Source: Rhodothermia bacterium (GTDB lineage: Bacteria; Bacteroidota; Rhodothermia; Rhodothermales; JAAAOL01). Taken from it: a DNA stretch of 38,819 nucleotides. Numbering within the stretch: position 1 is the stretch's first letter; each line of letters opens with the position of its first letter. The notes under the pieces were generated by a model, which was not told the DNA's origin, searched no databases, and was given only the letters and a program-made list of their open reading frames with translations. The stretch spans positions 1 to 38,819 of the forward strand of contig JAUIDY010000056.1 in NCBI GenBank assembly GCA_030428385.1. Direction: 5' to 3'. The position numbers and the translations under genes were made by a program. Below are positions 1,221-37,307 of the stretch, piece after piece.

Positions 1221-1272
1221 TGTTGTTTATCTTGCACGCTCGCTTTGTTTTTCGCCTCCGACGCTGCTGCCC

Positions 1273-6615: not shown

Positions 6616-6760
6616 ATACGGGAGCGGCAGTGCTTTATACCGAAAGTGAAAGAGGTTCAGGCAGATAACCTTCTGCTATCAGGTGCGTATCTTTTAGTTG
6701 ATTCCCTGAAAACATCGTAGGGAAGCCTCCTATTCCTGAACAATACGCCCCTCGACATAC

Positions 6761-7099
6761 ATGAACCGCGTTGCTTTCACCCTCCCCGACGTGGGCGTCC
6801 GCGAAGTCAAAGGCATGGTCTACGTGGACGATGGCTATCTGGTAATCAAGGTAGAGAGTGCCATCGCCGGGCTGATAGATACCGAGAAAGACCTCGTTAA
6901 GATTGAACCGAGTGCGTTGGAAACGCTGGAGATCAAACGCGGCATCTTCCGGGATCGGCTGGTGGTGAAGCCGAAAGGTATGGAGTTGCTGGAGCTTATT
7001 CCGGGCAACCATGCCTCGGCCGTGGAATTGCGCGTGTGGACCAAGTACCGCAACGACCTCCAGGCCGTCGTGAATGATTTTTACGACCTGCTGATTTGA
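6761..7099 (+). CDS. Small protein of unknown function
   Basis: 112 residues from ATG 6761 (MNRVAFTLPDVGVREVKG). There is no signal peptide or membrane segment. The sequence alternates short hydrophobic strands (GMVYVDDGYLVIKVES, RGIFRDRLVVKP, SAVELRVWTKY) and ends in an amphipathic helix, which suggests a small PH-like beta barrel; that is inference from pattern only. It stands alone on the plus strand 145 bp after the receptor. Codon usage looks like its neighbours, so I believe it is real, but I recognise no family. Confidence 0.6.
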   Translation: MNRVAFTLPDVGVREVKGMVYVDDGYLVIKVESAIAGLIDTEKDLVKIEPSALETLEIKRGIFRDRLVVKPKGMELLELIPGNHASAVELRVWTKYRNDLQAVVNDFYDLLI

Positions 7100-7191
7100 G
7101 TCGTTCATTGCCGCCGTTGATCGTTTCAGGATAAAATCGCCAGCGCTCCATTCGGCCTGTTCTTTCACGCACGATAATCCATCAGCCCTTC

Positions 7192-7223
7192 AGGTTAACA
7201 AAGGGCTTCTTAATGAGCACACA
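7192..7223. repeat. Degenerate direct repeat, copy 1
   Basis: AGGTT at 7192 and CTTCTTAATGAGCACACA at 7206-7223 recur at exactly 300 bp distance (7492-7523). The last 18 bases match at 16 positions. Confidence 0.45.
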
Positions 7224-7450
7224 GGTTGCACTTCCTTGATGCTCCGCTGAGGCGACGGCTTGAGCCAAAGGAGTGGTTTGTTCTTTCAGGGACCAAAGAA
7301 CCAAAGTCCTGCCGCCTCCGAAACCCGCGAACCCCGATCCAGCCCCACCTAAACCCATACCCAACGGGCTTGGGGCAATGAGCGATTAGGAATGGGCAAT
7401 GAGGAATTATTCATTGTTCATCACGCATTGCTCATCGTCATCGGCGTTTG

Positions 7451-7472
7451 GTCCTTTCCGCTGTGAAAGGAC
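7451..7472. repeat. Perfect hairpin in intergenic region
   Basis: GTCCTTTC (7451-7458) pairs perfectly with GAAAGGAC (7465-7472) around a CGCTGT loop. The flanking TTTG and CAAA can extend the stem past one bulge. A looser relative with GGACC and GTCC arms lies at about 7287-7310, next to the first repeat copy. It could be a dispersed intergenic element. Confidence 0.45.
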
Positions 7473-7491
7473 ACAAAACCAACACCCTCAA

Positions 7492-7523
7492 AGGTTGCGA
7501 ACACCCTTCTTAACGAGCACGCA
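7492..7523. repeat. Degenerate direct repeat, copy 2
   Basis: Second copy of the repeat at 7192-7223: AGGTT at 7492 and CTTCTTAACGAGCACGCA at 7506-7523. Confidence 0.45.
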
Positions 7524-7643
7524 CCTCCTCAATGCCACGCTAAACCCCCATTGGTTAAACGCGCCGGGGTTGCTCCCGCCGCGCCCTTGCCACAGAGGCG
7601 GCCCCGGTGCTCGATTCGGTCGCTTTAGGATGTGGCAACGACA

Positions 7644-8321
7644 TCATCGCTGTGGTGCGGAAACCGGCGTAGCAATAGACCGGCGTTCGAGCCACCATGC
7701 GGCGAGGCCCAGCCCCACCGCCACGCCGCCCCCCAGCAGCGTCAGCGGCATCAGCCGTTGCGGCAGCAGGCCCCGGGCGATGAAGAAAAAGCCCAGCCCG
7801 CTCATCAGAAAAGCGACATAAGCGCACGCGTTGAGCATCTGCGTCCATGAGAGCGTGGCGGCGGATTGGTGAACCGAAGTTGTGCCGGGGAAAAGCAGCC
7901 GCTTCCACTTGTCGAAGTCCCACACCAGCAAATAGGTGGTGGCGAGGAGCATCATGCCTGTAATCACCCAGGTGCCGCGAAAGTGCATCGCCATGGTGAT
8001 AACGAAGATGTTGAGGATGACGGGGAAATACAGCACTGCACCGAGGGCCGCCGTACGCGGGATGAGCAGCAGCAACCCGGCCAGCACCTGCGCCGCGCCC
8101 ACAAACACATAGTATTCGCTCGCCTGAAAAAACGCCTCGAAGAAGCTGCCGATCGGAGTTTCGGGCGAGATGATGGTGAAACGGTGGCCCAGCACCTTGG
8201 TCATGCCCGGCGGAATAAACCCGATGGCGAGCATCACGCGGGTGAAGGCGGTGAGGCGTTGGAGCCAGCGGTTGGTGGTGATCCGGGCATGCAGGTGGTC
8301 GAGGGCAGGTTCGAGCGGCAT
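7644..8321 (-). CDS. DoxX-like integral membrane protein
   Basis: From ATG 8321 (MPLEPALDHLHARI) this encodes 225 residues with several hydrophobic helices: RVMLAIGFIPPGMTKVLG, a segment around YYVFVGAAQVLAGLLLLIP, AALGAVLYFPVILNIFVITM, the TWVITGMMLLATTYLLVW stretch, and two C-terminal helices. The first helix with its GxxKxxG-like end and the Gln/Ala-rich second helix are typical of the DoxX/DoxD-like family of inner-membrane proteins, some of which act in redox or quinone chemistry; the substrate here is unknown. The frame stays open upstream, with further ATGs at 8381, 8432 and 8453. The 8453 start would leave only 14 bp to the divergent gene, so I chose the start just before the membrane domain. 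Confidence 0.75.
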   Translation of the reverse strand: MPLEPALDHLHARITTNRWLQRLTAFTRVMLAIGFIPPGMTKVLGHRFTIISPETPIGSFFEAFFQASEYYVFVGAAQVLAGLLLLIPRTAALGAVLYFPVILNIFVITMAMHFRGTWVITGMMLLATTYLLVWDFDKWKRLLFPGTTSVHQSAATLSWTQMLNACAYVAFLMSGLGFFFIARGLLPQRLMPLTLLGGGVAVGLGLAAWWLERRSIATPVSAPQR

Positions 8322-8467
8322 CGGCAGGGAAAGGGTGTGTGGTTGCGGATCTGTTGAAGAGGCTACGGAGGCACGCGGCATGGGTTGCTGAACCCGGGTT
8401 GGCAGAGTTGAAGAATGTTTTGCGCTTGTCATCTGAACCTGCTTCTTCACCATGCTCCTTTGTTGTA

Positions 8468-9271
8468 ATGCCTCGTCTGGTTTTCCTTTTCCTAATCCCG
8501 TTTTTGGTGCTGGGGTGCGGCACCGAAAGTGATACCGCCCACGCCCAATCCACGGCTTCGCCTGCGGCCGCTTCTTCCCCGAAGGCGGGCATGGAGCCAT
8601 TTTGTCACGCAGGCGTCTGCCTCGACCAAACCGCGGCTGACCTTGAGGTACGCTGGGATACCGAGCGGGCGGAACGCAGCGCTCGCGTGTACCAACGCAA
8701 GGTGGCGCGCGAGGCATCCTTTGCCGCCGAAACGCAGGAAAAAGTGGCCGCGGTTTTTGCCGGGGCCCCGGCTGCTACCCTCGAAGCCCTTGCCGAGGCT
8801 GCGCCGTCGGACATACTCGGCGGAGGCGGCACGTGGGACATAAACAGCCGCACGCAGCGCCATCTGGCCAGCATCGACCAGGTGTGCCGTTTTATCCGGC
8901 TGCGGGGCTGGACGACCGATGCCGACGGCAACGAAGTCACCATCGAATTGCTGCCTCGCATCAATGACGACGGCTCGAACACCTTCGTGGTGACAGACCT
9001 GTATTGGACCCTCGACGGGGTAGACTACAATGCGCCTGCAGGTGAGGCCGAAATCGCCGCCGCCCGTGCCCGCTACGGCGAGATGGCGTTGCTGAACGAC
9101 AACGAGCCCTTCACCACGGCCGCATATCGCCCCGTTCCGACGAACAACTACCAGGATACCTTCCTGGGCTTTTTGCTACGACACCCCGGTTTCTACAACG
9201 CGGGCACCTCGTGGGCCCGCTTCCGCGATGCACAAAAAGAAGCGATCGCCGCCCAGCCTGCCTGTCAATAA
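8468..9271 (+). CDS. Lipoprotein of unknown function
   Basis: ATG 8468 begins MPRLVFLFLIPFLVLGCG, a short lipoprotein signal with the lipobox LVLGC and Cys17 as the lipidated residue. The mature protein of about 250 residues has a Ser/Ala-rich linker, a helical Arg/Glu-rich part (residues about 60-115) and a mixed C-terminal domain with several Trp/Tyr and Cys residues. I recognise no family. It is followed after 17 bp by the YiiX-like amidase gene on the same strand and very probably forms an operon with it, suggesting a joint role at the cell envelope (inference). An in-frame upstream extension to 8339 overlaps the divergent gene and would bury the signal peptide. Confidence 0.75.
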   Translation: MPRLVFLFLIPFLVLGCGTESDTAHAQSTASPAAASSPKAGMEPFCHAGVCLDQTAADLEVRWDTERAERSARVYQRKVAREASFAAETQEKVAAVFAGAPAATLEALAEAAPSDILGGGGTWDINSRTQRHLASIDQVCRFIRLRGWTTDADGNEVTIELLPRINDDGSNTFVVTDLYWTLDGVDYNAPAGEAEIAAARARYGEMALLNDNEPFTTAAYRPVPTNNYQDTFLGFLLRHPGFYNAGTSWARFRDAQKEAIAAQPACQ

Positions 9272-9288
9272 CTCTTTCTCCTACGACC

Positions 9289-10092
9289 ATGTCTCATTTT
9301 CAAGAAAAGCACCACGCGGCGGTGCTCAAAGCCGCCTTTTCCAAGCTCAAACCGGGCGATATTCTGCTCACCGACGCGGGCAGCGGCCTCAACACCCTCG
9401 TGCAGGTGCTGACCGACATTCCCGCCGGCCATGCGATGTTATACACCGGTCATACGTACCGCCGGTATGCAGGCAAGAAGCATTACGTCATCGATCACCC
9501 TCCGCTGAAAGAACGCAGCGCGCTTGCTCATTTCGAGGACAGCAAAGTCATCCGCGTGATTGGTATTCACTGCAAAAAGCTGTCGGACGCCCAACGCAAG
9601 GTGATGATGGACTTTGCCCGAAGCCTAACGGGACAGGTGGGCTACAATGGCGGAATGCTCATGCTCCAAGGGTTGCGGGCCATCTTGCGATCCGTTGATG
9701 ACCGCCTCCTTACGGGAAAGGCAATGACAGCCAAAGAACTCAAGACGGCCATTATCAAGAAGCTGTACGGCGAACGGCAGGCGGTGGATAGCACCGTGCT
9801 GAAGTATCTCAACCGATGGATTAACGGAACCACGGAGTATGACCGCTCGCTAACCTGTTCGGCCGCCGTGGCCGTGGCGCATGAAATCGTAGGTGCGCCG
9901 ATTACCACGATGACGGCCCGTACAGTGGGCACGCAAGACATCTGGCGGGCCATGCAGCACAAACCCCATCGCTACAAAAAGGCGTTCGACATCAAGTTTG
10001 GCGCTACCAACTTCGACAAGGCGGTGAAGAAGCTGAACAAGGTGGGGGCGCAGCTTCAGAAAAAGGGCATGTCGACGAACACGTTTCGGTAG
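9289..10092 (+). CDS. YiiX/YaeF-type permuted papain-like amidase or peptidase
   Basis: 267 residues from ATG 9289 (MSHFQEKHH). LKPGDILLTDAGSG (about 20-33) followed by IPAGHAMLYTG with His48 matches the N-terminal half of circularly permuted NlpC/P60-like enzymes, where the catalytic His precedes the Cys. The nucleophile candidate is Cys190 in SLTCSAAVAVAHEI. Relatives (YiiX, C92 family) are thiol peptidases or amidases proposed to act on cell-wall peptides or lipids; the actual substrate is unknown. There is no signal peptide, so the enzyme is probably cytoplasmic or needs another route. It lies 17 bp after the lipoprotein gene, and its stop is only 3 bp from the convergent kinase gene. Confidence 0.8.
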   Translation: MSHFQEKHHAAVLKAAFSKLKPGDILLTDAGSGLNTLVQVLTDIPAGHAMLYTGHTYRRYAGKKHYVIDHPPLKERSALAHFEDSKVIRVIGIHCKKLSDAQRKVMMDFARSLTGQVGYNGGMLMLQGLRAILRSVDDRLLTGKAMTAKELKTAIIKKLYGERQAVDSTVLKYLNRWINGTTEYDRSLTCSAAVAVAHEIVGAPITTMTARTVGTQDIWRAMQHKPHRYKKAFDIKFGATNFDKAVKKLNKVGAQLQKKGMSTNTFR

Positions 10093-10095
10093 CTG

Positions 10096-13085
<2,990 letters not shown>

Positions 13086-20594: not shown

Positions 20595-20901
20595 GAGGGG
20601 CGGTGGCGGAAGGTGTCAGTGGCGCGAGAAGATCGTTAAGCGCCGGGAAGCCCAAACAGTTCTGCACAGATCGTCCAAATCCCGTAACACGTTGGCTGGG
20701 TGTTGCAGGCTTGATTTGCTGGAACAATAACAGCCATCGAGTTGCGATATTTACGAAAGGAAGAGGGTTAAGATGTTTGTTTATAAGGACTTGGATTGGT
20801 AATAGTGATTTGTTTTTAATGTGGAAAACTCAGCCTTGCAAAACGGCGTTTATCTGCCGTAATTGATAACAATAAGGTTTTTTACCCCACACCCCGCCCG
20901 T
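20595..20901. other. Intergenic region between idi and smc
   Basis: 307-bp divergent gap with an AT-rich right half (about 20740-20885), which should hold the promoters of idi and smc. I could not find a match to the TTG / TAnnTTTG pattern with acceptable spacing. No gene or RNA is seen. Confidence 0.4.
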
Positions 20902-23900
20902 ATGTATCTCAGTAAGCTGGAGCTGCACGGCTTCAAAAGCTTCGCCGACCCCACCTCCCTGCACTTCGACCCGGGCGTGACGGCAATTGTTGGCCCGAAC
21001 GGCTGCGGCAAGTCAAACATTGTGGATGCCGTCCGGTGGGTCATCGGCGAGCAGCGGGCGCGGATCCTGCGGTCGGAGAAAATGGAGAATGTCATTTTTA
21101 ATGGCACCTCCAAACGACGGCCCCTGGGGCTTTCAGAAGTGCTGCTCACCATTGAAAACACGCGGGGGGTGCTGCCTACCGAATACAGCGAAGTGACCGT
21201 GGGGCGGCGCCTCTATCGCTCCGGCGACTCTGAATACCTGCTCAACGGCGTGCCGTGCCGCCTGAAGGACATCGTCGATCTGTTTATGGATACCGGCATG
21301 GGCGCGGGGGCGTACTCGGTCATTGAATTAAAGATGATCGAGGAAATCCTGTCTGACAATGCCCACGACCGCCGGCGGTTGTTCGAGGAAGCAGCGGGCA
21401 TCACCAAGTACAAGCAGCGGCGGCGTCAGGCGCTCAGTAAGTTGGGCACCACGCAGGCCGACCTCGACCGGCTGCGTGACCTCACGGAAGAGATCGACAA
21501 ACGTGTTGCCAGCCTGAAACGGCAGGCGGCCAAGGCCGAGCGGTTCAAGACCTACGAGGCGCAGCTGCATACGTTGGAACTGGCGCTGGCCCAGACGGAA
21601 TACGACCGGCTGACGGCCCAGCAGGTCCAGATTCAGGGCGAGATCCAGGGGCTGGAAGAGGAACTGGAGGCGTATCAGGCCGGGCTGGCCAAAGAAGAAG
21701 CCCATCTCGAAGCCCTGCGCACGACGCGGGTGGGGCGGGAGCAGACACTGTCGGGATGCCAGCAGCGGCTCAATGCCCACCTGGAAACCACTCGGCAGTT
21801 GGAGGCCGACCTTCGGTTGGAGCAGGAGCGGCTGGAAACGGCGCGGCGCGACTACGAGCGGACGACGAAGGCGCAGGAGGAGGCCGAGGCGCGTCGGGAG
21901 GAACTGGAAGCCCACGCCGAAGGGCTGGCGCACGCGCTGGTGGAGGCCGAGCCCGCGCGCATCCACACGGAAGAGGCCCAGCGGGTGGCCCAAGCCGACC
22001 GCGACCGCACCCGGGCCGCCGCCGAAAAGCTGCGCACCGAGGTACAACACGTACGCAACCGCGAAGCCGCCGCCGCCGAGGCCGAGGCCACCGCCCGTCG
22101 TCGGCTCGACCGGCTGGCGGCCCGCATCGAACTGCTGAAGCAGGAACGGGAACGGCTGCAAGCGGAAGCCAACGCGTTGCAGGAAAAGCTGGACACGCAG
22201 GAAACCGCCCAGCAGGCCGCCGAAGCTCATTTCACGGATGCAAAGGCCAACCTGGAGAACGCCCAATCGGATCTGGCCGAGGCCGAGACCCTCCATGCAA
22301 CGCGCCAGCAAACACTCGAAGCGGCCACCCAAACCTGGCAGCAGGCCGAACGCAACCGCGCCGCCATCGCTGCCGAGGCGCAGGTGCTGGAAAGCCTCGT
22401 GTTGTCCTATGAGGCCTTCTCCAATGCCGTGCAGTTTCTCGCCGATGATGCCTCCTGGACCGACGCTCCGCTGCGCACCATCGCCGATGTGCTGACCTGT
22501 GCCGACACCGACCGACGTGCCCTGGATGCGGCCCTCGGCGAGTTGGCCTCGTGTATCGTGGTGGAGACCGACGCTGAGGTGCAGCAGGCACTGGCCCGCT
22601 TGCGCGAGGAAGAACAGGGACAGGCGACGTTTTTGGTGCTGGAGCGGCTTCAAGGACAATCTGTGACGCCTCCAACGTCCATGTTTTCAAATGGGGTGCC
22701 TTTGCTGTCGGTGGTGGGAGTAACCGAGCCGCGTTATGCCCCGCTGGTGCCGGTGTTGTTGTTCGACACCTACCTTGTCGACACGCTGGAAGAGGCACAG
22801 GTCGCCGCCGCCGGGTCGCGGGCGCGGTTCGTCACGCGGGATGGCGAGTGGGCAGCAGCCGGAGGCCTGGCACATGGCGGGAGCGTACACACCGATGGCT
22901 CCGCCCTGTCTGATCGGCTGGGCCGCCGGGCCCAATACGAGGCCGCCCAGCAGCAACACGCCGCGCTTGATACGCAGGTGATGGAGGCTGAGGCAGCGGT
23001 TCAGGCTGCACGTGTGGCGCTTGCCAACGTGCCTGTGGAAGCACACCGGGCGGCGGTGCAGACCGCCCAGCAGGCCTTTGCCAATGCCCGCAGCGCCTAC
23101 GACCAGGCTGTTTTTGCCGTAGATGCGCAGCGGAACCGGGAGCAGGACCTGGCCGCACGGCAGGACACCATCCACGAGGAGCTTGCCGAAAGTCGGCATG
23201 AAATCGAAACGCTCCAGGAAGTGGTTACCCAAGCCGAGGAAGAGCGGGCGTCTTTGCTCGACGAGCGCGAGCAGGCTGAGGAAACCTACCGGGTGGCCGA
23301 GGCCAGCGCCCAGGCGGCCCAGGAGCGCCTCGCCGAGGCCAACGTGGCGGCGGTGCAGGCCCGCAACCACGCCGACAACCTCCAGCGCGACCGCGACCGT
23401 ACCCAGCGGGAGATTGGGGCGCTGGTGCAGCGGGCTGAAGACCAGCAGCAGCACCTCGAAGGGCTGAATGTTACGATCGATGCGGCCCAGCAGCAGCGCG
23501 ATGCGATTAACACCCAATTGGAGGACGTGCGTAGCGGACGGGCTGCACTGGATGACGCCGTGACCGAGGCACAGAAAGCCCTGCTGGAAGTGAAGGTCGC
23601 CATCGATCAGGTGGAACACGGACTGCGCACATTGCGGCAGGAGCGCGAGCAGCGGATGCGCGATGAAAACCTGCGGGCCGTCAAGCAGGCCGAGGTCCAA
23701 ACCCGCCTCGAAGACCTCATCGCCAGCATCGCCGAGGATTTTAACCACGTGCTCACGGACCAGCGGGTGGTGATGCCCGAGGAATTCGAGGAAGCGGTGG
23801 CCCGCGACGAGGTGAAGGACCTGCGTGCCAAGATCCGCAACATGGGCAGTATCAACGCACTGGCGCTGGAGGAGTACGCCGAGGAAAAGGAACGCCTCGA

Positions 23901-24462
23901 CTTCTTGCTTGAGCAGCAGGCCGACCTCGAACAGGCCGAGTCGACGCTGCTCGAAACCATCGACGAGATCAACACCACGGCGGCGGCTCGGTTTGGCGCT
24001 ACGTATCAGGCCATCGAACGCAATTTCCACGAACTGTTCACCGAGTTATTCGGCGGCGATGCCACCGGGCACCTCCAACTCACCGACCCGACCGATCCCC
24101 TCGAATCGCCCATCGAGATTATGGCCAAGCCGCGCGGCAAGCGTCCGGTGGTCATCAGCCAGCTTTCGAGCGGGGAGAAGACGCTGACCGCCATCGCGTT
24201 GCTGTTTGCCATCTACCTCGTGAAGCCCAGCCCGTTCTGTATCCTCGACGAAGTAGACGCCCCGCTCGACGAGGCGAACATCGACCGTTTTATGCACCTT
24301 ATCCGCCGTTTTGCCGACGAGACGCAATTTATCCTCGTGACCCACAACAAGCGCACGATGGAACTCGCCGACCGGCTCTACGGCATCACGATGCAGGAGC
24401 AAGGCGTCTCGCGCCTCGTGGGCGTGCGCTTCGATGAGGCGCTGGAAGTGGTGGGTGAATGA
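20902..24462 (+). CDS. smc: Chromosome segregation protein SMC
   Basis: 1186 residues from ATG 20902 (MYLSKLELHGFKSF), the usual length for bacterial SMC. N-terminal ATPase half with Walker A GPNGCGKS at 31-38 and SNIVDAVRWVIGEQ. Long coiled coil (about 170-500) rich in E, Q, A and R. Hinge domain around 510-650 (SYEAFSNAVQFLADD, then GLAHGGSVHTDGSA). Second coiled coil, then the C-terminal ATPase half with the signature LSSGEKTLTAIALLFAI and Walker B CILDEVDAPLDEANIDRF. It forms the condensin ring with ScpA and ScpB for chromosome compaction and segregation; scpA and scpB are not in the window. The coiled coils produce long meaningless antisense frames. Confidence 0.97.
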   Translation: MYLSKLELHGFKSFADPTSLHFDPGVTAIVGPNGCGKSNIVDAVRWVIGEQRARILRSEKMENVIFNGTSKRRPLGLSEVLLTIENTRGVLPTEYSEVTVGRRLYRSGDSEYLLNGVPCRLKDIVDLFMDTGMGAGAYSVIELKMIEEILSDNAHDRRRLFEEAAGITKYKQRRRQALSKLGTTQADLDRLRDLTEEIDKRVASLKRQAAKAERFKTYEAQLHTLELALAQTEYDRLTAQQVQIQGEIQGLEEELEAYQAGLAKEEAHLEALRTTRVGREQTLSGCQQRLNAHLETTRQLEADLRLEQERLETARRDYERTTKAQEEAEARREELEAHAEGLAHALVEAEPARIHTEEAQRVAQADRDRTRAAAEKLRTEVQHVRNREAAAAEAEATARRRLDRLAARIELLKQERERLQAEANALQEKLDTQETAQQAAEAHFTDAKANLENAQSDLAEAETLHATRQQTLEAATQTWQQAERNRAAIAAEAQVLESLVLSYEAFSNAVQFLADDASWTDAPLRTIADVLTCADTDRRALDAALGELASCIVVETDAEVQQALARLREEEQGQATFLVLERLQGQSVTPPTSMFSNGVPLLSVVGVTEPRYAPLVPVLLFDTYLVDTLEEAQVAAAGSRARFVTRDGEWAAAGGLAHGGSVHTDGSALSDRLGRRAQYEAAQQQHAALDTQVMEAEAAVQAARVALANVPVEAHRAAVQTAQQAFANARSAYDQAVFAVDAQRNREQDLAARQDTIHEELAESRHEIETLQEVVTQAEEERASLLDEREQAEETYRVAEASAQAAQERLAEANVAAVQARNHADNLQRDRDRTQREIGALVQRAEDQQQHLEGLNVTIDAAQQQRDAINTQLEDVRSGRAALDDAVTEAQKALLEVKVAIDQVEHGLRTLRQEREQRMRDENLRAVKQAEVQTRLEDLIASIAEDFNHVLTDQRVVMPEEFEEAVARDEVKDLRAKIRNMGSINALALEEYAEEKERLDFLLEQQADLEQAESTLLETIDEINTTAAARFGATYQAIERNFHELFTELFGGDATGHLQLTDPTDPLESPIEIMAKPRGKRPVVISQLSSGEKTLTAIALLFAIYLVKPSPFCILDEVDAPLDEANIDRFMHLIRRFADETQFILVTHNKRTMELADRLYGITMQEQGVSRLVGVRFDEALEVVGE

Positions 24463-28188: not shown

Positions 28189-28264
28189 TGCCCTATAGCT
28201 CAATTGGCAGAGCGCCTGACTCTGGATCAGGAGGTTCCAGGTTCGAATCCTGGTAGGGCAACCA
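28189..28264 (+). tRNA. tRNA-Gln (anticodon CUG)
   Basis: A complete cloverleaf can be drawn. Acceptor TGCCCTA pairs with TAGGGCA. D-arm is GCTC...GAGC. Anticodon stem CCTGA/TCAGG encloses the loop CTCTGGA with anticodon CTG, reading CAG codons. T-arm CCAGG-TTCGAAT-CCTGG. Discriminator A is at 28261 and the CCA end is encoded (28262-28264). The U1-A72 start is typical of bacterial tRNA-Gln. The sequence immediately 3' changes to less GC-rich, integrase-bearing DNA, so this tRNA is a likely integration site. Confidence 0.96.
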
Positions 28265-28348: not shown

Positions 28349-28597
28349 TCAACAAAACGTGTATTGGTTTAGCACTAAAACGCACATGTTGCTCTGCTCA
28401 TAGATGGAATTCCCCATGCTGGATATTAAGTGCAAATCCGAACTCATTAGCGGTTCTAATTGAATGTGCAAACGTTCAATGTGCTTCCATTCGACATGTT
28501 CAAGCTCAATGGGCATATAATTCACAGGATTAAGTGAGGCTTCTGTCCTAAAGCGTTCCCCCAGCCTGTCAATGAGTTCACAACGAAACATCATCAT
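28349..28597 (-). CDS. Possible small protein after the methyltransferase-helicase
   Basis: Frame of 82 residues from one of three consecutive ATGs (28597, 28594, 28591), beginning MMMFRCELIDRLGERF and overlapping the end of the helicase gene by 20 bp. The sequence (EHVEWKHIERLHIQLEPLMS and so on) is mixed polar with no motif. The overlap with the upstream gene is what would be expected for a coupled third gene, but base composition gives little support. If it is not coding, 28265-28577 is an empty stretch between the helicase gene and the tRNA. Confidence 0.3.
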   Translation of the reverse strand: MMMFRCELIDRLGERFRTEASLNPVNYMPIELEHVEWKHIERLHIQLEPLMSSDLHLISSMGNSIYEQSNMCVLVLNQYTFC

Positions 28598-31241
28598 GTT
28601 CCTCGATACCCTCTGAAAGGGGCCGGTCAACACAAAACGCATCAAAATGCACCTCCGTGTCTTGATCCCAGATAATAATCCGATCTTTCTCAAACGTATT
28701 CAGAATAGGATAAAAGGACGTGTGGGTATTCGGAAAAAGTGCGATAATGAGCAGAGCAGCACTCCGGGTAAGGATGGTATACACATACTCCTCCACGTCA
28801 TCCTCCGTGTCCTCAAAGACACGGGTCGACCACACTACACATGTCTTTTCAAGCCCTTTAAGACGAAGAATGGTATTGGTCTCAGCATCCATTCCAATCT
28901 CAGAAAGCTCACTACGTAGCGAGCTATCGCTTTCTAGAATACTGCACCTTCCCAGTTCAAACCCCACCGTGCCGAGCGACTCACTGTAGGCCGTGTAAAT
29001 GGCATGAATCTTTGTAGCCATACGGTGCTCATCCCGTGCCCACACAACAATCGGGCGAGCCCCGGGAGGTGAACCTCGATAGGGGTTTTGCAAGCTTACC
29101 CGGACTTTGTCCTTGCACGACTCGCGCTTTTTAAAGATGCGCTGAGAGAGCGGCACAACCGCCTCACTTATGCGAAAAGGAAGCCGGTAGGACCCTTGTA
29201 GTTCATGGGTGCGCCGATTCTTTTGGCCACCATTTAGACGAGGCAAAATGCTACTGGCCGAGCGCCCCATGTGAACAGCCTGGGCTAAATCGCCCGCCAC
29301 AATGAGTTCGTTGGGATCAGCAAGAAGGCGGTAAAAGATGGCATAATCCGTTTGAGTGCAATCCTGCATCTCATCAACAAAAACGTGCGAAAAGAACTCG
29401 ATATAATCACTGGGTAGGAGACCCGAAATCGCTTTATATTTTTTAATCTTATTTAGCTCCTTCTTTACCCACTCGTCGGGATTCCATTCGGCAGGAGTCA
29501 CGCCCCGAAGCAGTTCTGGGAATAGATTTGTATTCGGTTTCAGGAGTTCAAAGAATCGCTTCCTCCTGGCCGTAAAGGTGGTACCATTCATGCCAGTTAG
29601 CTCTTCAAGAAAGGTCTTCAGACACTCCCATAACGCTTGACGTGGTTTACTATTGACAACAAAGCGGGGACGTCCTGGTCGAGGTCGCGTCAAGAATTTT
29701 TCTTCTGAGGTTCGATAGAGGCCATAGTAGACGCGGTGGTATTCATCGAGGATAAAAACAGGATCAAGAACGCGTTTAATATCAGAAGCGGCAAAGCCTT
29801 GTGCCTTTAATAGCTCTTCCGCCTTAATTACAGAACGTTCGGCTAAGGCAAGAAGCGATGCCCCATGCGCAACGTGCGATGCCGTTTCTAAGTGATGCAC
29901 CATTCCCAAACGGGTGGGAAGAACGTCAAAGTGAAGCAGAAAAATGTTTGGCTTGCTAGACCCTTCGAACTGACCGAGGTAACACGTCTCGCCCGCTTCA
30001 TTGTTGGCCAGTCGCCAACGAACGCGCTCCGTATCTAGCAGCGCACGAAGCCACTTGTAAAGTACCTTTTTGATAAGGGAGCGGTTAAACGTGGTGACAA
30101 GAATCCGCAACTCAGGATCGTACTGGCGCTCCTCTACTAGATTGCGGATCCGTTCCGTGATGACAATGCTTTTCCCGCATCCTGCGGGGCCGTGTATCAG
30201 TGTAGGCCGGTTATCGTGATTGGCCGCATTCTGCTGCTCAGGCGAAAGGTGAATCTCCAAACGCTCTGTGATGTGTGGCATGAAAAGCGAAAGGTCTCCC
30301 TTTTCATTTCGTGGTGCGTCTAGCTCGAAGGCTAGCCCCAATTGACGCCGCGCATAAATGCGACCCGTAAAGCTATAATCATCCCAAGAAGCTGCTGGAC
30401 GCATGGAGCGCACCTGCTGCTGCAACGTAGCCCTTACTTTGTTAAGAGACGGTAAGCTTCCTTTGAAAGGCGCGCTCACCGCCATGTGGCGAGCAACAAA
30501 GTCAGCCGCTTCAAGACGTTTTCCAATTGCATCCAGAAAAGCAATTTTTTTGCTCTGCGCGGAGGTAGAAACCACAACTTGCTGAGGCTTTATGCGGGCC
30601 ACTAACCGATCGAAATCGATAGAGAGGGCTTCTTTCTTGTCTTCATGATCGAATAGGTAGGACGTAAATAGCCAGGTGTCAGAGGTCCCAACAGGGGCAT
30701 GGTGCCACGTGTTGAGTTGGGAGGTGTACTCCACATAATGGCATGCTGAGAACCGGCTCGACAGCTGTCCCCAAAGATGATCCAGGTAGTGCAACATGAA
30801 GGGACTTGAGTCAACGTTGACCATGTGCAAACGAGGGGGCGTCTTGCCTACGGCTTCGAATGCCGCACATGCCAATGCCAACGCCCACTGCACAGCCCCC
30901 GTACCAGCTCCCAAATCATACACCTGCACGGACTTGCCTTCGGCTGTACCCAGAAGACTAAGCGAAAGAGCGAGCGAAGTGTTCACCCGCCGAGCATGAT
31001 ACCATAACCCATAGACAACACCGATGCTGGGGCGGTCGTAGCATAGGTCCTGTCCTTTTGAGAGGCGGTAGGACTCAAGATTCGACGCTTTCAGGTCATA
31101 CCGGGCGTTGGGACGCCTCATTAATTGGTGGACGTAGCTCCTTCCAGCCTCCGCGAGAACCTCATCAAGTAGATCTTGCTGAGACTGTAACCAGCGGAGC
31201 TCTTCTGAAAAATCAGGCTGATGGCTAGGTGTTGGATTCAT
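28578..31241 (-). CDS. Methyltransferase-like domain fused to SF1 UvrD-type helicase
   Basis: 887 residues from ATG 31241 (MNPTPSHQPDFSEELRW), one base after the stop of the radical SAM gene (TGA-C-ATG), so translation is coupled. Residues about 75-270 look like a class I SAM methyltransferase: motif I VQVYDLGAGTGAVQWALA at about 106-123 and an acidic strand end in MVNVDSSPF near 140. Residues about 335-870 are an SF1 helicase: Walker A GPAGCGKS (351-358), motif Ia ILVTTFNRSL, Walker B VDEMQD (622-627), motif III VAGDLAQAV, motif IV GSYRLPFRISEA, motif V LKGLEKTCVVWSTR and motif VI YTILTRSAAL. All helicase motifs are intact, so it should be an ATP-dependent DNA or RNA translocase. I do not know a named family with this fusion. 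Role unknown; a nucleic-acid modification or defence function is inference from the neighbours. Confidence 0.85.
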   Translation of the reverse strand: MNPTPSHQPDFSEELRWLQSQQDLLDEVLAEAGRSYVHQLMRRPNARYDLKASNLESYRLSKGQDLCYDRPSIGVVYGLWYHARRVNTSLALSLSLLGTAEGKSVQVYDLGAGTGAVQWALALACAAFEAVGKTPPRLHMVNVDSSPFMLHYLDHLWGQLSSRFSACHYVEYTSQLNTWHHAPVGTSDTWLFTSYLFDHEDKKEALSIDFDRLVARIKPQQVVVSTSAQSKKIAFLDAIGKRLEAADFVARHMAVSAPFKGSLPSLNKVRATLQQQVRSMRPAASWDDYSFTGRIYARRQLGLAFELDAPRNEKGDLSLFMPHITERLEIHLSPEQQNAANHDNRPTLIHGPAGCGKSIVITERIRNLVEERQYDPELRILVTTFNRSLIKKVLYKWLRALLDTERVRWRLANNEAGETCYLGQFEGSSKPNIFLLHFDVLPTRLGMVHHLETASHVAHGASLLALAERSVIKAEELLKAQGFAASDIKRVLDPVFILDEYHRVYYGLYRTSEEKFLTRPRPGRPRFVVNSKPRQALWECLKTFLEELTGMNGTTFTARRKRFFELLKPNTNLFPELLRGVTPAEWNPDEWVKKELNKIKKYKAISGLLPSDYIEFFSHVFVDEMQDCTQTDYAIFYRLLADPNELIVAGDLAQAVHMGRSASSILPRLNGGQKNRRTHELQGSYRLPFRISEAVVPLSQRIFKKRESCKDKVRVSLQNPYRGSPPGARPIVVWARDEHRMATKIHAIYTAYSESLGTVGFELGRCSILESDSSLRSELSEIGMDAETNTILRLKGLEKTCVVWSTRVFEDTEDDVEEYVYTILTRSAALLIIALFPNTHTSFYPILNTFEKDRIIIWDQDTEVHFDAFCVDRPLSEGIEEHDDVSL

Positions 31242-31242
31242 G

Positions 31243-32103
31243 TCAGATGGGAGGGGCGAACCCGTCTTTGCCAATCCCAACCATCGGGAGCCGATGCTGA
31301 AGGACGCTCAGCACCTCAGCGTATCGTTTTTCCGTCCATTCAAATTGGTCGATGGCTTGCTGGGCTGCCTCGCGGGTTCCAGCGACAAACTTACCCCGCG
31401 TAGGATGGAAAGGCTGCACAATAAACTTCTGAATGCCTGTCTCCAACAGTTGCTCAGCGAGCGCCTCAGGATCCGCAACAGGAAGAAGTGGGGTAAGCGT
31501 AATGCAAGCATTGAGGCCTGCTGCTGCAATCTCCTTGATGGCCCGAAGCCGAACGGTGTTATTGGGGCACGATGGCTCAAAGGCACGGCGGACCTCATCT
31601 GAGTCCGTAGTAACCGTCATATTTACTTGAACATGATCAAACTGTTGGAGCACATCTACATCGCGGGTGACAAGGGGGCTTCGGGTCTGGATTACCAGGC
31701 GCGGCTGATGTCGCCGCACAAGCTCTTTGAGTAGACTCCGTGTTAACTCAATTTTTTTCTCGATCGGCTGATAGGGGTCAGTGACGCTACTCATATATAT
31801 CGTCTTGCCCGTAAGCGAATTCGGACGCTTCTTGTGCAGCAACGCCCGTGCGTTTTCTTTAACGGTTACCCACTGCCCCCAACCGTCACGCGCTTCTTTG
31901 CTACGTGAGAAAAACGCCGCGTAGCAGTAGGTGCAACCGAACGTACACCCCGAGTACGGATTGAGAGTAAAGTCGTAGGAGGCCATAAACCCGTTTCCCG
32001 GCGTGAGGATAGAGCGGGCCTGGTTATATGTGACTTCGCTTTTTCCTAGGCGGGCGGGGCGATTTTCGCCCAGCGGAGGGTCGCTGAATAACGTTCCTTG
32101 CAT
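31243..32103 (-). CDS. SPL-type radical SAM protein
   Basis: 286 residues from ATG 32103 (MQGTLFSDPPLGENRP). The [4Fe-4S] motif CTFGCTYCY (Cys53, Cys57, Cys60; CxxxCxxC) sits after NPYSG. MSSVTDPYQPIEKK and the VIQTRSPLVTRDVDVLQQF stretch match COG1533 (SplB/spore photoproduct lyase-like, also the Rv2578c-like radical SAM group). Members cleave SAM to a 5'-deoxyadenosyl radical; SplB itself repairs a thymine dimer, but most relatives have no known substrate. It is the first gene of a two- or three-gene operon with the methyltransferase-helicase. A 16-bp palindrome lies 33 bp upstream of the start. Confidence 0.88.
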   Translation of the reverse strand: MQGTLFSDPPLGENRPARLGKSEVTYNQARSILTPGNGFMASYDFTLNPYSGCTFGCTYCYAAFFSRSKEARDGWGQWVTVKENARALLHKKRPNSLTGKTIYMSSVTDPYQPIEKKIELTRSLLKELVRRHQPRLVIQTRSPLVTRDVDVLQQFDHVQVNMTVTTDSDEVRRAFEPSCPNNTVRLRAIKEIAAAGLNACITLTPLLPVADPEALAEQLLETGIQKFIVQPFHPTRGKFVAGTREAAQQAIDQFEWTEKRYAEVLSVLQHRLPMVGIGKDGFAPPI

Positions 32104-32135: not shown

Positions 32136-32151
32136 TCTGATAATAATCAGA
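32136..32151. promoter_or_regulatory. Palindrome upstream of the radical SAM gene, possible operator
   Basis: TCTGAT-AATA-ATCAGA is a perfect inverted repeat of 6-bp arms, 33-48 bp before the radical SAM start codon, in an AT-rich stretch where a promoter would be expected. Confidence 0.35.
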
Positions 32152-32285: not shown

Positions 32286-33425
32286 TTAACTGAGCGCAAA
32301 TACTTCCTCGACAATAGCATGGCGCTCGGGAGCAAGGTGCATGTATTTCTCGGTGACAGTCAGGCTTGAATGCCCTGCCCACTCCTTGATACGGTGTGGA
32401 TCTACACCGCGCTGTGCCAGCCACGAGCAAAATGTGTGACGTAGCGTATGCCAGTGAATCGTCTCGTCCAACCCCGCAAGCCGGATAAATCGCTTAAAGC
32501 GTCGGCTTAGCCATGCCGGGTATATTTCGCTACCGAAAGCTGCTTTGAGCAGAAGTTCATCTTGACGGCGATCATGGCCACTTACGTCTTCGTAGACACT
32601 CCGGGCCATTGGTGAGAGCGGAACGGCCCGGTCATGCCCAGACTTTGTTCGAAAACCTTCTCGGTTGCGAACAAAGAGCAACCCCTTTCCTACCTCAACA
32701 TCTCCACACCGCAGCGCAAGGAGTTCGCCTCGTCGGAGTCCCGTGCTTACAGCTAGCCGCACCGCCCGGTGTACAACCAGCGCTCCTTCGGCGTCGATGC
32801 CCGCATGCCCATCAGCATACGCCTTGATTACCTGCAAGAGGTGTTCAAGGTCGCCCTCCGTGAGGAACTGCGGCGTCCGGCGTGTCTGGTGCGGCGCTTC
32901 AATGTCACCAAGTGGAGATTCAAGAAGGCATCCCTGGGCGACACTCCAATTGAGGAACGCCCGCAGGTTGCGGTAATACGTTTTGCGGGAAGCATCCGAA
33001 GTAGGTCGGTTGATTATGCGCTGGCAGTCCGCCACCGTCATATCGCGCAGGAGAAGCCCAGCAGGCACCATGCCTGAGACCATCGACAAGAACTCGCGGT
33101 AGCCCTTGATGGTGCTTGCGCTTCGTCCCTGGCCCTTCTTGGCCGCAACGAACTTCTCACTTGCCTCTTCCAAAGAAATGGGTGCCAGGGCAACCCGATC
33201 CTTCCAGGGGTCATACTCCCCTCGTTCGTATGCCGTTACAAGACGCCGAAAACGGGTGTCGGCCTTACGCTTTTTGTTAGTTTCCATCGATACCCACCGG
33301 CGACGGCGCGTGTCGGGGTCATAGAAGATCGCGTGGTAGTTGCCGCGCTTGTCCTTGAACAGTCTAGGCTCGCCGCGTAGGTGGTGCATCCGTCGTATAC
33401 GTTTTCGAATCAGGGTGTCTCTCAT
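32286..33425 (-). CDS. Tyrosine recombinase / phage-type integrase
   Basis: 379 residues from ATG 33425. The N-terminal part (about 1-75, basic) would bind arm sites; a SAM-like core-binding domain spans about 85-180 (EEASEKFVAAKKGQGRSAST...); the catalytic domain spans about 190-375. Catalytic residues are visible: Arg231 in STGLRRGELLAL, Lys near 261, His326 and Arg329 in HWHTLRHTF, His352 in WAGHSS, and the nucleophile Tyr361 in EKYMHLAPERH. All are intact, so it is probably active. The start lies 6 bp after the stop of the excisionase-like gene, in the same operon. This is the enzyme expected to have inserted the island at tRNA-Gln. Confidence 0.95.
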   Translation of the reverse strand: MRDTLIRKRIRRMHHLRGEPRLFKDKRGNYHAIFYDPDTRRRRWVSMETNKKRKADTRFRRLVTAYERGEYDPWKDRVALAPISLEEASEKFVAAKKGQGRSASTIKGYREFLSMVSGMVPAGLLLRDMTVADCQRIINRPTSDASRKTYYRNLRAFLNWSVAQGCLLESPLGDIEAPHQTRRTPQFLTEGDLEHLLQVIKAYADGHAGIDAEGALVVHRAVRLAVSTGLRRGELLALRCGDVEVGKGLLFVRNREGFRTKSGHDRAVPLSPMARSVYEDVSGHDRRQDELLLKAAFGSEIYPAWLSRRFKRFIRLAGLDETIHWHTLRHTFCSWLAQRGVDPHRIKEWAGHSSLTVTEKYMHLAPERHAIVEEVFALS

Positions 33426-33431
33426 AGCACA

Positions 33432-33734
33432 TTACGGATTGATGGTTTCTCTGGCAAGACGGCGCATAAAGCGTCGCAACACGCCCAGGCTGTACCGAGG
33501 AGATTTGCCCAGCTTGCCATAAGGGAGTTCATCCTCATCCCGCAGGCGGCGCATGGTGCGGGTGCTTGTTTCAAGCAGCCTGGCGGCTTCCTCTTCTGTC
33601 ACGGTCGCATCGTCGCCTAGGTGCAGTGCCATGAGTTCCACGCGCAGCCTAGCGAGCAAGCGCTCTTCGAGGCGGCATACGATCCGGTCAATTACCTCGT
33701 CGGACAGGGCGTTATGTCGGCCAAGCCCATCCAT
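33432..33734 (-). CDS. Helix-turn-helix protein, excisionase-like
   Basis: 100 residues from ATG 33734 (the preceding in-frame TTG 33737 is less likely). The C-terminal half, VTEEEAARLLETSTRTMRRL followed by the wing-like LPYGKLGKSPRYSLGVLRRF, is the helix_turn_helix_17/excisionase-type winged HTH. The N-terminal half is a charged helix (RIVCRLEERLLARLRVEL), perhaps for dimerisation. It sits 6 bp before the integrase gene and its ATG overlaps the stop of the upstream gene (TGATG), so it is coupled on both sides. It is likely the recombination directionality factor or a regulator of the integrase. Confidence 0.8.
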   Translation of the reverse strand: MDGLGRHNALSDEVIDRIVCRLEERLLARLRVELMALHLGDDATVTEEEAARLLETSTRTMRRLRDEDELPYGKLGKSPRYSLGVLRRFMRRLARETINP

Positions 33735-34120
33735 CAAAAGGGAGCAACAGGTTGCAGCTCTGAACGGTCGAACGCGAAGAGAGACAGGTAACTGCTTCCC
33801 ATGCGCCCTTTGACTTTGCTGTCGGCCACGGCGCTAGGTACGCCGCCAACCGTGTTTACCACAGTGCCCCAAAAGCGAAGGCTTAGCATCGACTCCTCAG
33901 CGTCCCAAGCAAGGCGTTCGTCGGGCGACGTTCGCGGGCATGGCTCCGGTTCTGGCATTTTTGCCATCGTGCGGGCCAGGGGGCAGTGGCTGGTAGTGAG
34001 GGAATAGCGTCTCATGTGTTCGGCGTCTCCAGGAACAGAGGTAAAAGTGTTCCACATTGCGCCCAACGAGCAGACATCCGGCTTGGCTAACGGTGATGCG
34101 GCTCCTCCCCCTGAAAGCAA
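33734..34120 (-). CDS. Unknown protein at the head of the integrase operon
   Basis: Up to 128 residues from 34120. Internal ATG 34057 (MWNTFTSVPGDAEHMRRYSL) is a possible shorter start. I recognise no motif; the composition is mixed, with several Ser/Pro/Met residues. The main support is position: its TGA stop shares a base with the ATG of the excisionase-like gene (TGATG), and the three genes run on without gaps, as in a real operon. The A-tract array lies upstream and may include its promoter. Confidence 0.45.
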   Translation of the reverse strand: MLSGGGAASPLAKPDVCSLGAMWNTFTSVPGDAEHMRRYSLTTSHCPLARTMAKMPEPEPCPRTSPDERLAWDAEESMLSLRFWGTVVNTVGGVPSAVADSKVKGRMGSSYLSLFAFDRSELQPVAPF

Positions 34121-34624: not shown

Positions 34625-35239
34625 CTAGGAGTCGCCTTTGGCATCTTTGCGGGGGCGGCTGCGCCGGTCAGAGACCTCGCGGCTCATCTTCGCATAGGCG
34701 ACTTTTACGCCTCCTCCCGTAGGTGCGAAGTTCATGGCATCCTTGGCGCTTATAGAGAGCTTCTGCGCTTCCTGAATCGCATCCTGGTTGGCGGCGAGGA
34801 AGACAAACTCCCAGCCATATTTTTCCTGCTGGTGCTTGATCATCTCGGCCACACGGGCGCGGGTGTAGTCGCTGCTGGCGTTCTCCATGCCGTCGGTGAG
34901 AATGGCCACGATCACGGTCCCTGGACGCTCTTCCTCTGTCGTCTCGGCGAGGCGCTTGCCCACATCGTCGATGGTTCGACCGATGGCATCAAGGAGCGCC
35001 GTCGTGCCGCGGGGTGTGTAGGTGGCCTCGCTCAGCGGAGCTACGTGCTTGATGTCCACGGCGTCGTGTACCCGTTCGTATTCGTGGTCGAAGAGGATTA
35101 AGGTCAGGCGGGCGCTCCCGGGATGCTTCTTTTGCTCTTCGAGAAAAGCGTTGAAGCCACCGATGGCGTCGGACCTGATGGATTGCATGGAGCCAGAACA
35201 GTCAATGATGCAGGCGATTTCGGAGAGGTCGTGTATCAT
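34625..35239 (-). CDS. VWA-domain protein
   Basis: 204 residues from ATG 35239 (MIHDLSEIACIIDCSGSM); an extension to 35314 adds an unlikely leader. It is a single von Willebrand factor A domain with a complete metal-ion-dependent adhesion site: DCSGS (residues 13-17), the Thr of PRGTTALLDAIG near 75-85 and the Asp of ILTDGMEN near 115. The C-terminus is a basic tail. Small stand-alone VWA proteins of this size include TerY-like and other partners of ATPases or modification systems; the partner here is unknown. No signal peptide, so it is cytoplasmic. It lies between the A-tract array and the XRE regulator, all on the minus strand, and may be expressed with the island. Confidence 0.85.
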   Translation of the reverse strand: MIHDLSEIACIIDCSGSMQSIRSDAIGGFNAFLEEQKKHPGSARLTLILFDHEYERVHDAVDIKHVAPLSEATYTPRGTTALLDAIGRTIDDVGKRLAETTEEERPGTVIVAILTDGMENASSDYTRARVAEMIKHQQEKYGWEFVFLAANQDAIQEAQKLSISAKDAMNFAPTGGGVKVAYAKMSREVSDRRSRPRKDAKGDS

Positions 35240-35387
35240 GGCAGTAAAGGAAGGTCGGTGAAGAGGAGGGGCGCGAAACAAGTAGGCGCAGCGGTGCAGG
35301 GATTCACACCACACGTGTGGGCAAAGGGTTTCGGATAAGCCGTAGAGCCATGCTTACAGATAGCACGATCAGCTAACCGGTTGCCCG

Positions 35388-35742: not shown

Positions 35743-35903
35743 GGGTCTCGATTTCAGCAGACTGCATGCCGCAAGAAGATGGGAAGTGTTTCTCATTCGC
35801 GGTATCTTTAGCCAGCGGATGGTTTGCCGCAGAACTTTCCATTGTTAACATGTTTATTCACTACTCTCTCTTACTCCAGTAGCCTAAACGCATTTGATTG
35901 CCC

Positions 35904-37307
35904 ATGTTCACAGTTTCGGGTGACCGGCCTATAGACGATGTTTTTGAAGAGATCCGTGGTGTATACCGCGAGCACGACTACCCGTGGGTTATTGGATATA
36001 GTGGGGGTAAAGACTCCACCACCGCGTTGCAGCTTGTGTGGGTAGCGATTGCTGGTCTCCCACAAGAGGAGCGCACGAAACCGGTTTTTGTCATCTCGAC
36101 CGATACGCTGGTGGAGACACCTGTCATTGTTGATCATGTTCGAAACACCATTGAGCGGATCAACGAGCACGCAGCGAAGGAAAAGATGCCCTTCACGGCC
36201 CGGATTCTTCGTCCAAAGGTTGAGGACACGTTTTGGGTTCAGCTCATCGGGAAAGGGTATCCCGCCCCCAACAGTATTTTCAGGTGGTGTACTGACAGGT
36301 TAAAGATTAAGCCCTCCAACACCTTCATTAAGGAGCAGGTGGCGAAGTATGGCGATGTGATCCTGGTGCTCGGCAGCCGACGTGGAGAAAGCATGACGCG
36401 CGACCAGGTGCTCAACAAAAACTATATGCCCGGGATGAAGCTGGCGATGCATGGGCAGCTCAACAATGCCTGGGTATACTTACCGATTGAGCACTTCTCA
36501 ACGGATGACATCTGGACGTATCTGATTCAGCATCACTCGCCCTGGGGCAACGACAATCGGCAGTTGGCGAACCTGTACCAGTCTGCGCAGGACGGCGAGT
36601 GCCCGATTGTTGTTGATACAAGCACACCGAGTTGTGGCAATAGCCGCTTTGGATGCTGGACCTGCACCGTCGTGGCCCGCGACCGCTCGATGGAAGCCAT
36701 GATCGATTCGGGGCAGGACTGGATGATTCCGCTCCTGGAATTCCGCGATTGGCTCGCTGAGACGCAGGACCCGGAAGTCAAGCATGAGCAGCGCGAATAC
36801 AAAGGGCGGGATGGACGGGTCCGCTTTTCTAAAAACGGGCGCTTGCTCTACCGGACGTACAAGCTGGCGTTTTCCAAGGCCATGTTGCAGCGACTCCTCG
36901 AGACGCAGAAAGAGATTCTCGAGTACGATCCCGACTTCAGTCTTATTAGTGAAGGCGAGTTGCACGAGATTCGGCACATCTGGCTATCCGAACGGCAGGA
37001 CTGGGAAGACTCGGTTCCAAGAATCTATAAAGAGGTCACGGGGCGAGATTTGTCATGGAAGCAGTATGATATTTCACTACCGGGACGTCTGGAGCATGAG
37101 GTGCTCACGCGGGTTGCAGACAGGCACAACGTTCCAGCAGGTCTCTTGCAGAAACTGATTGACGCGGAGTGGCAAAATCATGGCCTCAGGAGACGGGCAT
37201 CTATCCATAACCAAATAGCCAAGATTATGGGCGAGGAGTGGCGTACGCTCGACGAGGTGAAAGCAGAGTCCGAACAGCGTCAGAAAGCGACCGCAGAAGA
37301 GGCATAG
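35904..37307 (+). CDS. dndC: DNA phosphorothioation sulfurtransferase DndC
   Basis: 467 residues from ATG 35904 (MFTVSGDRPIDDVFEEI); TTG 35898 is only a track of the same frame. PP-loop SGGKDST at 33-39 marks an ATP-pyrophosphatase/PAPS-reductase-like fold that adenylates or activates the DNA backbone for sulfur insertion. Conserved cysteines Cys129 (FRWCTDR), Cys233, Cys244, Cys251 and Cys254 (SCGNSRFGCWTC) fit the iron-sulfur cluster and sulfur-transfer sites of DndC. The C-terminal part is helical and charged. With DndA or another cysteine desulfurase, DndD and DndE it puts phosphorothioate links in DNA. dndC is the first gene of the operon here, without dndB upstream; dndD follows after 3 bp. 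Confidence 0.95.
   Translation: MFTVSGDRPIDDVFEEIRGVYREHDYPWVIGYSGGKDSTTALQLVWVAIAGLPQEERTKPVFVISTDTLVETPVIVDHVRNTIERINEHAAKEKMPFTARILRPKVEDTFWVQLIGKGYPAPNSIFRWCTDRLKIKPSNTFIKEQVAKYGDVILVLGSRRGESMTRDQVLNKNYMPGMKLAMHGQLNNAWVYLPIEHFSTDDIWTYLIQHHSPWGNDNRQLANLYQSAQDGECPIVVDTSTPSCGNSRFGCWTCTVVARDRSMEAMIDSGQDWMIPLLEFRDWLAETQDPEVKHEQREYKGRDGRVRFSKNGRLLYRTYKLAFSKAMLQRLLETQKEILEYDPDFSLISEGELHEIRHIWLSERQDWEDSVPRIYKEVTGRDLSWKQYDISLPGRLEHEVLTRVADRHNVPAGLLQKLIDAEWQNHGLRRRASIHNQIAKIMGEEWRTLDEVKAESEQRQKATAEEA

Follow-up and report, generated by a model that had tools for sequence, protein, structure and literature searches.

An obligate radical SAM and methyltransferase-helicase gene pair from a Rhodothermia genomic island: a probable defence system acting on nucleic acid

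What purpose is served by two adjacent genes, carried on a genomic island, that couple a radical S-adenosylmethionine (SAM) enzyme to a fusion of methyltransferase and helicase? The genes lie on a contig of 38,819 nucleotides from a Rhodothermia bacterium (GenBank assembly GCA_030428385.1, contig JAUIDY010000056.1; this whole stretch is called the window here), where one encodes a radical SAM protein of the spore photoproduct lyase (SPL) family and the other an N-terminal methyltransferase domain joined to a superfamily 1 (SF1) helicase. A first-pass annotation of the sequence had proposed that the pair installs, removes or repairs a nucleic acid modification, perhaps as anti-phage defence. 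The layout that it described agrees with the coordinates (Table 1): a single base separates the stop codon of the radical SAM gene (31243-31245) from the ATG of the fusion (31239-31241). A longer, TTG-started reading frame for the fusion, beginning at 31280, is merely mechanical, and the ATG start at 31241 was adopted. Because the two genes are always adjacent and travel together through islands of virus-defence genes, the pair probably constitutes an undescribed means of defence based on chemical alteration of nucleic acid.

Runella slithyformis (DSM 19594) carries a relative of the pair on its conjugative plasmid pRUNSL02, found by plasmid search; there the radical SAM gene overlaps the fusion by 4 bp. 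Neither the genomes nor the viral contigs searched yielded a relative when a single sequence served as query; an alignment of three sequences was needed for detection in the genomes and revealed 11 further loci, hosted by Hymenobacter (two), Dyadobacter, Flavobacterium (two), Balneolaceae, Chitinophagaceae (two), a Cytophagaceae bacterium, an uncultured Bacteroidetes bacterium and one metagenome-assembled genome of the Phycisphaerales. In all 13 loci (the window, the Runella plasmid and these 11), both genes are adjacent and keep one order, with a spacing of -14 to +25 bp, which excludes a chance association; their sequence distances are correlated as well (Mantel r 0.855, permutation p 5e-5), and the pair is thus a unit whose genes co-diverge. 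The fusion evolves faster than its partner (mean identity 39-44%, against 64% for the radical SAM protein), as might be expected of a sensor facing phages.

The pair is also rare and sporadic. Outside the window genome, the whole fusion occurred in only one of approximately 295 Bacteroidota genomes, and the profile of its methyltransferase domain detected the window genome and one other of 394, besides one short sub-fragment match. The profile of the radical SAM subfamily scored 505-513 bits in two of 198 Bacteroidota genomes, each of which also carries the fusion, and the best score in any other genome was 134 bits; the subfamily was found without the fusion in none of these 198. The tight coupling suspected in the first-pass annotation is upheld by these results, and the homologs, rare and always paired, do not have the character of widespread housekeeping proteins. 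No fusion was detected in the phage collection, and an all-against-all comparison of the flanking proteins revealed no recurring third gene. Two kinds of weaker match were set aside: the sole match among viral contigs consists of a helicase fragment and not of the fusion, and numerous genomic matches at E-values of 1e-4 to 1e-6 cover only short helicase stretches and were interpreted as ordinary UvrD-type helicases.

Clear defence genes adjoin the pair in eight of the 13 loci, and homologs are enriched in defence islands, as the proposed link to islands would predict. The neighbors are a DRT-type reverse transcriptase (locus L022), type I restriction genes (L023), McrBC-like genes with LmuA and LmuB of Lamassu (L024), a restriction-modification protein with an OLD-like ATPase (L025), mad7 and mad8 of MADS with a phosphatase-like protein (L026), TOTE (L027), genes for PglZ, BrxL, a kinase and McrC (L032), and Dnd genes in the window; in several of these loci the pair stands directly 3' of the defence operon, on the same strand. 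The 87 proteins encoded within approximately 5 kb of the pairs match 157 PADLOC families at an E-value of 1e-20, against six for 87 control proteins encoded in 12 arbitrarily chosen 10-kb stretches of other Bacteroidota genomes, a contrast that is qualitative, since the family counts are redundant. The two Flavobacterium pairs (L026 and L032) encode fusions that are 82% identical, and they reside beside MADS and BREX, respectively; the pair therefore moves as a unit, independently of its neighbors. It is this genomic context that speaks for the anti-phage role suggested earlier, and a role in defence, taken in general, appears fairly probable.

Mobility raises the alternative that the beneficiary of the pair is the mobile element, whose DNA might, for instance, be marked against host restriction or whose transfer might be aided. 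The conjugative plasmid copy, the integrative island in the window, and the restriction systems adjoining several loci are consistent with such a service, but several other loci are chromosomal, with ordinary neighbors and, in the set of proteins scanned, neither an integrase nor a transfer gene, and this explanation is considered very unlikely.

The radical SAM protein belongs to its superfamily by its match to PF04055 (5e-15, over the cut-off) and by the invariant cysteines of its CxxxCxxC motif. Below their curated cut-offs, it also matches the NCBIfam models of the PA0069 family (3e-38; 131 bits vs. a cut-off of 360) and of protein B of the radical SAM mobile pair A/B (TIGR04471/TIGR04470; 2e-30; 106 bits vs. 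a cut-off of 410); the latter pair is likewise found on mobile elements, but the partner there is a second radical SAM protein instead of a methyltransferase-helicase. With SPL and the COG1533/SplB family (PA0069, Rv2578c), the window protein shares the radical SAM fold family, the CxxxCxxC motif and a DPYQP motif; it differs by Cys179, by a C-terminus of the form QPFH...GKF and by the constant presence of the fusion, and it matches the SPL model (TIGR04070; 5e-7) with approximately 29 bits vs. a cut-off of 400, short of a full-length member. The SPL hydrogen-donor cysteine lies approximately 45 residues past the cluster motif; model coordinates would place this site near residues 105-107, where all 13 proteins read Ser-Ser-Val. 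An alignment of the window protein, its 12 paired homologs and 15 unpaired relatives indicates that the paired proteins are a distinct subfamily with its own cysteine, because Cys179 is present in 13 of 13 paired proteins and replaced by Thr or Ala in all 15 unpaired ones, and Cys200 occurs in 12 of 13 vs. 0 of 15. The earlier label "SPL-type" is therefore appropriate for the family, and too broad for this private subfamily. Finally, the PADLOC candidates with a DUF5131-type protein (PDC-M41 and PDC-M30) share a three-cysteine, radical-SAM-like protein and a defence context with the pair; yet the radical SAM protein itself matches very weakly (9e-4), and, among the matches listed, none of their partners corresponds to the fusion.

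One unpaired relative, 44% identical, is encoded on a Staphylococcus saprophyticus plasmid (L034, 4406-11185) among genes for a 2-oxoglutarate-Fe(II) oxygenase, an Ada-like protein, a glycosylase and a methylguanine methyltransferase, with hexulose-phosphate (formaldehyde) genes nearby; this group is possibly a cluster for the repair of alkylation or formaldehyde damage that includes a radical SAM enzyme.

Another alternative is a mobile DNA-repair module, in which the radical SAM enzyme would reverse a base lesion as SPL does and the fusion would unwind or scan DNA, on behalf of the host or the element, under conditions of damage. COG1533/SplB genes are under SOS control in Bacteroidetes (PMC8565304) and have a link to repair polymerases (PMC3765255), the Staphylococcus relative sits among alkylation-repair genes, and UvrD/Rep motors have repair roles. 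However, the genes repeatedly found beside the pair are those for defence and not for SOS functions or repair, and the repair explanation loses ground for this reason. Moreover, an SplB-like gene, nearly always of the unpaired type, was found in 80 of the 198 genomes; since the unpaired form is common and the pair is rare, repair already has an enzyme of its own. The methyltransferase is also without an obvious role in direct reversal, and on balance a repair module appears rather unlikely.

The first-pass annotation had assigned a SAM-methyltransferase-like domain to the N-terminal part of the fusion, an assignment that becomes clear by structure; PF13847 matches the window fusion only below threshold (E 0.26). 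In an AlphaFold model of 332 residues, based on an alignment that left out the Runella plasmid sequence (predicted local distance difference test, pLDDT, 80; predicted template modelling score, pTM, 0.83), residues 1-300 adopt the seven-strand, Rossmann-like fold of class I SAM methyltransferases, which is also the fold of its structural matches. A second-look structural aligner placed METTL17/Rsm22 structures on top, with Z-scores of 19.6-16.8 covering residues 9-300, ahead of the next unrelated fold at 13.1; the best match (19.6) extends over 245 residues and includes the N-terminal helical part. Since Foldseek, ranked by E-value alone, lists GRAS-domain proteins first, with high root-mean-square deviation, the Rsm22/METTL17 assignment depends on Z-score and coverage. 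Sequence profiles hardly register this relationship: the Rsm22 model PF09243 matches one of the 13 members (E 0.037, not over its cut-off) and leaves 12 without a match, a PDB sequence search with the domain profile returned no significant match, and hhalign gave a probability of 8% against one distant genomic Rsm22-like protein, so that the link to Rsm22 is a structural one. The model thus points to a methyltransferase of the Rsm22/METTL17 type rather than a typical DNA or RNA base methyltransferase, which the first-pass annotation had not foreseen.

METTL17/Rsm22 is a small-subunit assembly factor; four cysteines of METTL17 hold an Fe-S cluster, and the SAM motif is disrupted in yeast (PMC11046306). 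The domain described here differs in its fusion to a helicase, in its intact SAM motif and in its cysteines. Across the 13 homologs, D, L and the three G of motif I (DLGAGTG) are invariant, as are Asp144 and an S-Y-L-x-D motif, and Cys67 is the sole conserved cysteine; the four-cysteine [4Fe-4S] set is absent. Since the SAM motif is kept and the Fe-S cysteine set is missing, the domain looks catalytic rather than architectural.

The remainder of the fusion is a complete SF1 helicase, as had been noted from the sequence. The UvrD N-terminal domain (PF00580) is significant at 1e-17, SF1 motifs I-VI are all present and conserved in the 13 homologs, and the nearest structural match of the model is Rep (Z 19.5), closely followed by PcrA and UvrD. 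All motifs and the overall fold are shared with these SF1A helicases; the fusion differs in the methyltransferase domain ahead of the helicase, and it scores far under every helicase equivalog cut-off. Defence cassettes with UvrD-like motors are known. Gabija, which consists of the GajA nuclease and the UvrD helicase GajB, resembles the pair as a two-gene cassette of defence islands with a UvrD-like partner; in contrast, the adjacent gene here is radical SAM in 13 of 13 loci and not the ATPase-TOPRIM protein GajA, and GajB models match weakly (47 bits at most).

The Rsm22-like fold opens a further alternative, an RNA-modification module guarding translation, in which this domain would dock on rRNA, and the methyltransferase and the radical SAM enzyme would together modify rRNA or tRNA against toxins, antibiotics or phage nucleases. 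Rsm22/METTL17, the closest fold, binds small-subunit rRNA (PMC9892005), and the radical SAM enzyme Cfr provides a precedent for antibiotic resistance through rRNA methylation (PMC3702613); helicase modules fused to RNA-modifying enzymes also exist, NAT10 being among the fold matches. Yet the motor most resembles translocases of DNA (Rep, UvrD and PcrA), the neighborhoods of the pair have no toxin, resistance or ribosome gene in common, and the Fe-S cysteines that stabilize METTL17 on the ribosome are absent. Such a module is regarded as unlikely.

The best overall explanation, to which a probability of roughly 0.45 is assigned, is a two-gene defence cassette on islands and plasmids that acts by motor-guided modification. 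The catalytic sites of both proteins (SAM motif I, the SF1 motifs and CxxxCxxC) look intact by their sequence conservation. In the mechanism envisaged, the UvrD/Rep-type motor would load on invading nucleic acid or on its replication intermediates and, as it moves, take the Rsm22-like methyltransferase with it; the methyltransferase and the separate radical SAM enzyme would then each contribute a SAM-dependent step to the modification of this nucleic acid, after which the invader's nucleic acid would no longer be replicated or expressed. The Rep/UvrD-like motor and the SPL-family enzyme favor DNA as substrate and the Rsm22 fold favors RNA; DNA would be the likelier of the two. This particular mechanism, in which a translocase guides the modification of an invader's nucleic acid by two SAM-dependent reactions, is put forward tentatively. 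As a caveat, several points weigh against the defence cassette and its mechanism: that two reactions follow each other is guessed from the composition of the pair; the methyltransferase domain might bind its target without methylating it, since METTL17/Rsm22, its best-studied fold relative, works mainly by rRNA binding (PMC11046306, PMC9892005); four of the 13 loci (L028-L031) have ordinary neighbors among the proteins scanned; the control set behind the enrichment is small and comes from other genomes; and location in a defence island is no proof of defence, as mobile elements also bear repair and fitness genes.

No model in PADLOC, Pfam or NCBIfam describes either protein fully, and the composition is described nowhere in the literature searched, which covered few subscription papers or preprints; the earlier statement that no named system combines these parts holds within these sources. 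All parts come from known superfamilies, and there is a substantial chance that the chemistry is categorically new. A bolder proposal, that a motor-borne methyltransferase, the bacterial cousin of a mitochondrial ribosome-assembly factor, and a dedicated radical enzyme install a crippling modification as a new form of immunity with two uses of SAM, is doubtful. If the pair defends, radical SAM chemistry beyond viperins would be added to bacterial immunity, and the Rsm22/METTL17 fold, familiar chiefly from the assembly of mitochondrial ribosomes, would gain a role on a motor protein; three separable active sites, the subfamily-specific cysteine and 13 natural variants, including the plasmid-borne one of Runella slithyformis DSM 19594, offer experimental handles.

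Table 1. Features of the gene pair and its island in the window.
Feature	Position	Strand	Evidence or remark
tRNA-Gln (CTG), attachment target of the island	28189..28264	plus	ARAGORN; downstream of the pair
46-bp attachment (att) core, 3' part of tRNA-Gln	28219..28264	plus	Exact second copy at G000:C152:11085-11130
Fusion protein, 887 aa: Rsm22/METTL17-type class I methyltransferase domain (predicted) and UvrD/Rep-type SF1 helicase	28578..31241	minus	
SF1 helicase domain, residues 331-865	28647..30251	minus	PF00580 1e-17; Z 19.5 to E. coli Rep 1uaa
Walker B DEMQD, residues 623-627	29361..29375	minus	DE.QD invariant in 13 homologs
Walker A GPAGCGKS, residues 351-358	30168..30191	minus	Kept in 13 homologs
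Methyltransferase domain, residues 1-300	30342..31241	minus	AlphaFold pLDDT 80, pTM 0.83; Z 19.6 to METTL17 8csp_7
SAM-binding motif I VYDLGAGTG, residues 107-115	30897..30923	minus	D109, L110, G111, G113 and G115 invariant in 13 homologs
SPL-family (COG1533-like) radical SAM protein, 286 aa	31243..32103	minus	
Subfamily-specific Cys179	31567..31569	minus	Cys in 13/13 paired, Thr or Ala in 15/15 unpaired proteins
CxxxCxxC [4Fe-4S] motif (C53, C57, C60)	31924..31947	minus	Invariant in 13 paired and 15 unpaired proteins
Perfect palindrome TCTGAT-N4-ATCAGA	32136..32151		33 bp upstream of radical SAM start; possible operator or repressor site
Tyrosine integrase of the island	32286..33425	minus	PF00589 2e-29
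Small helix-turn-helix protein, excisionase-like	33432..33737	minus	PF12728 4e-7
DndC (phosphorothioation), defence neighbor	35898..37307	plus	PADLOC 5e-189
DndD, cut by contig end	37311..38819	plus	PADLOC 3e-113

Within the window, the pair is located between an integrase and a tRNA and close to a phosphorothioation locus, as previously annotated, and the 46-bp repeat marks the island further. The simplest reading is an integrated element that extends from the tRNA rightwards beyond the contig end, with the pair just within its left end; contig C152 is likely to carry the other end of the same element. At the second copy of the repeat no tRNA is predicted, and a terminator-like sequence follows. 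Beside it, macrodomain/PARG-like and ADP-ribosylglycohydrolase-like genes, judged by eye, are found at 11580-13125 of C152 (L079), and these perhaps belong to the far end of the same island. A VWA-domain protein (34625-35314), encoded between the integrase and DndC, is a possible part of the Dnd neighborhood. The 16-bp palindrome of the window was absent upstream of the pairs in the other loci, where a shared regulatory palindrome was looked for.

Several further observations concern the neighborhoods of individual pairs. In L022, the DRT-like reverse transcriptase and a 228-aa partner to which no family was assigned lie directly upstream of the pair (1118-3104). Upstream of the pair in L024, an 870-aa protein matching PDC-S02 and type II restriction enzyme models is followed by a McrC-like gene (270-2882). 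The L026 genes mad7, mad8 and the phosphatase-like gene are arranged in series with the pair, on one strand and almost without gaps, in the manner of an operon (1463-12478). The Runella plasmid copy sits after HipA genes. Finally, an SMC chromosome-segregation gene occurs near the pair in two unrelated loci (L028, 12548-14290; window, 20863-24462), probably by chance.

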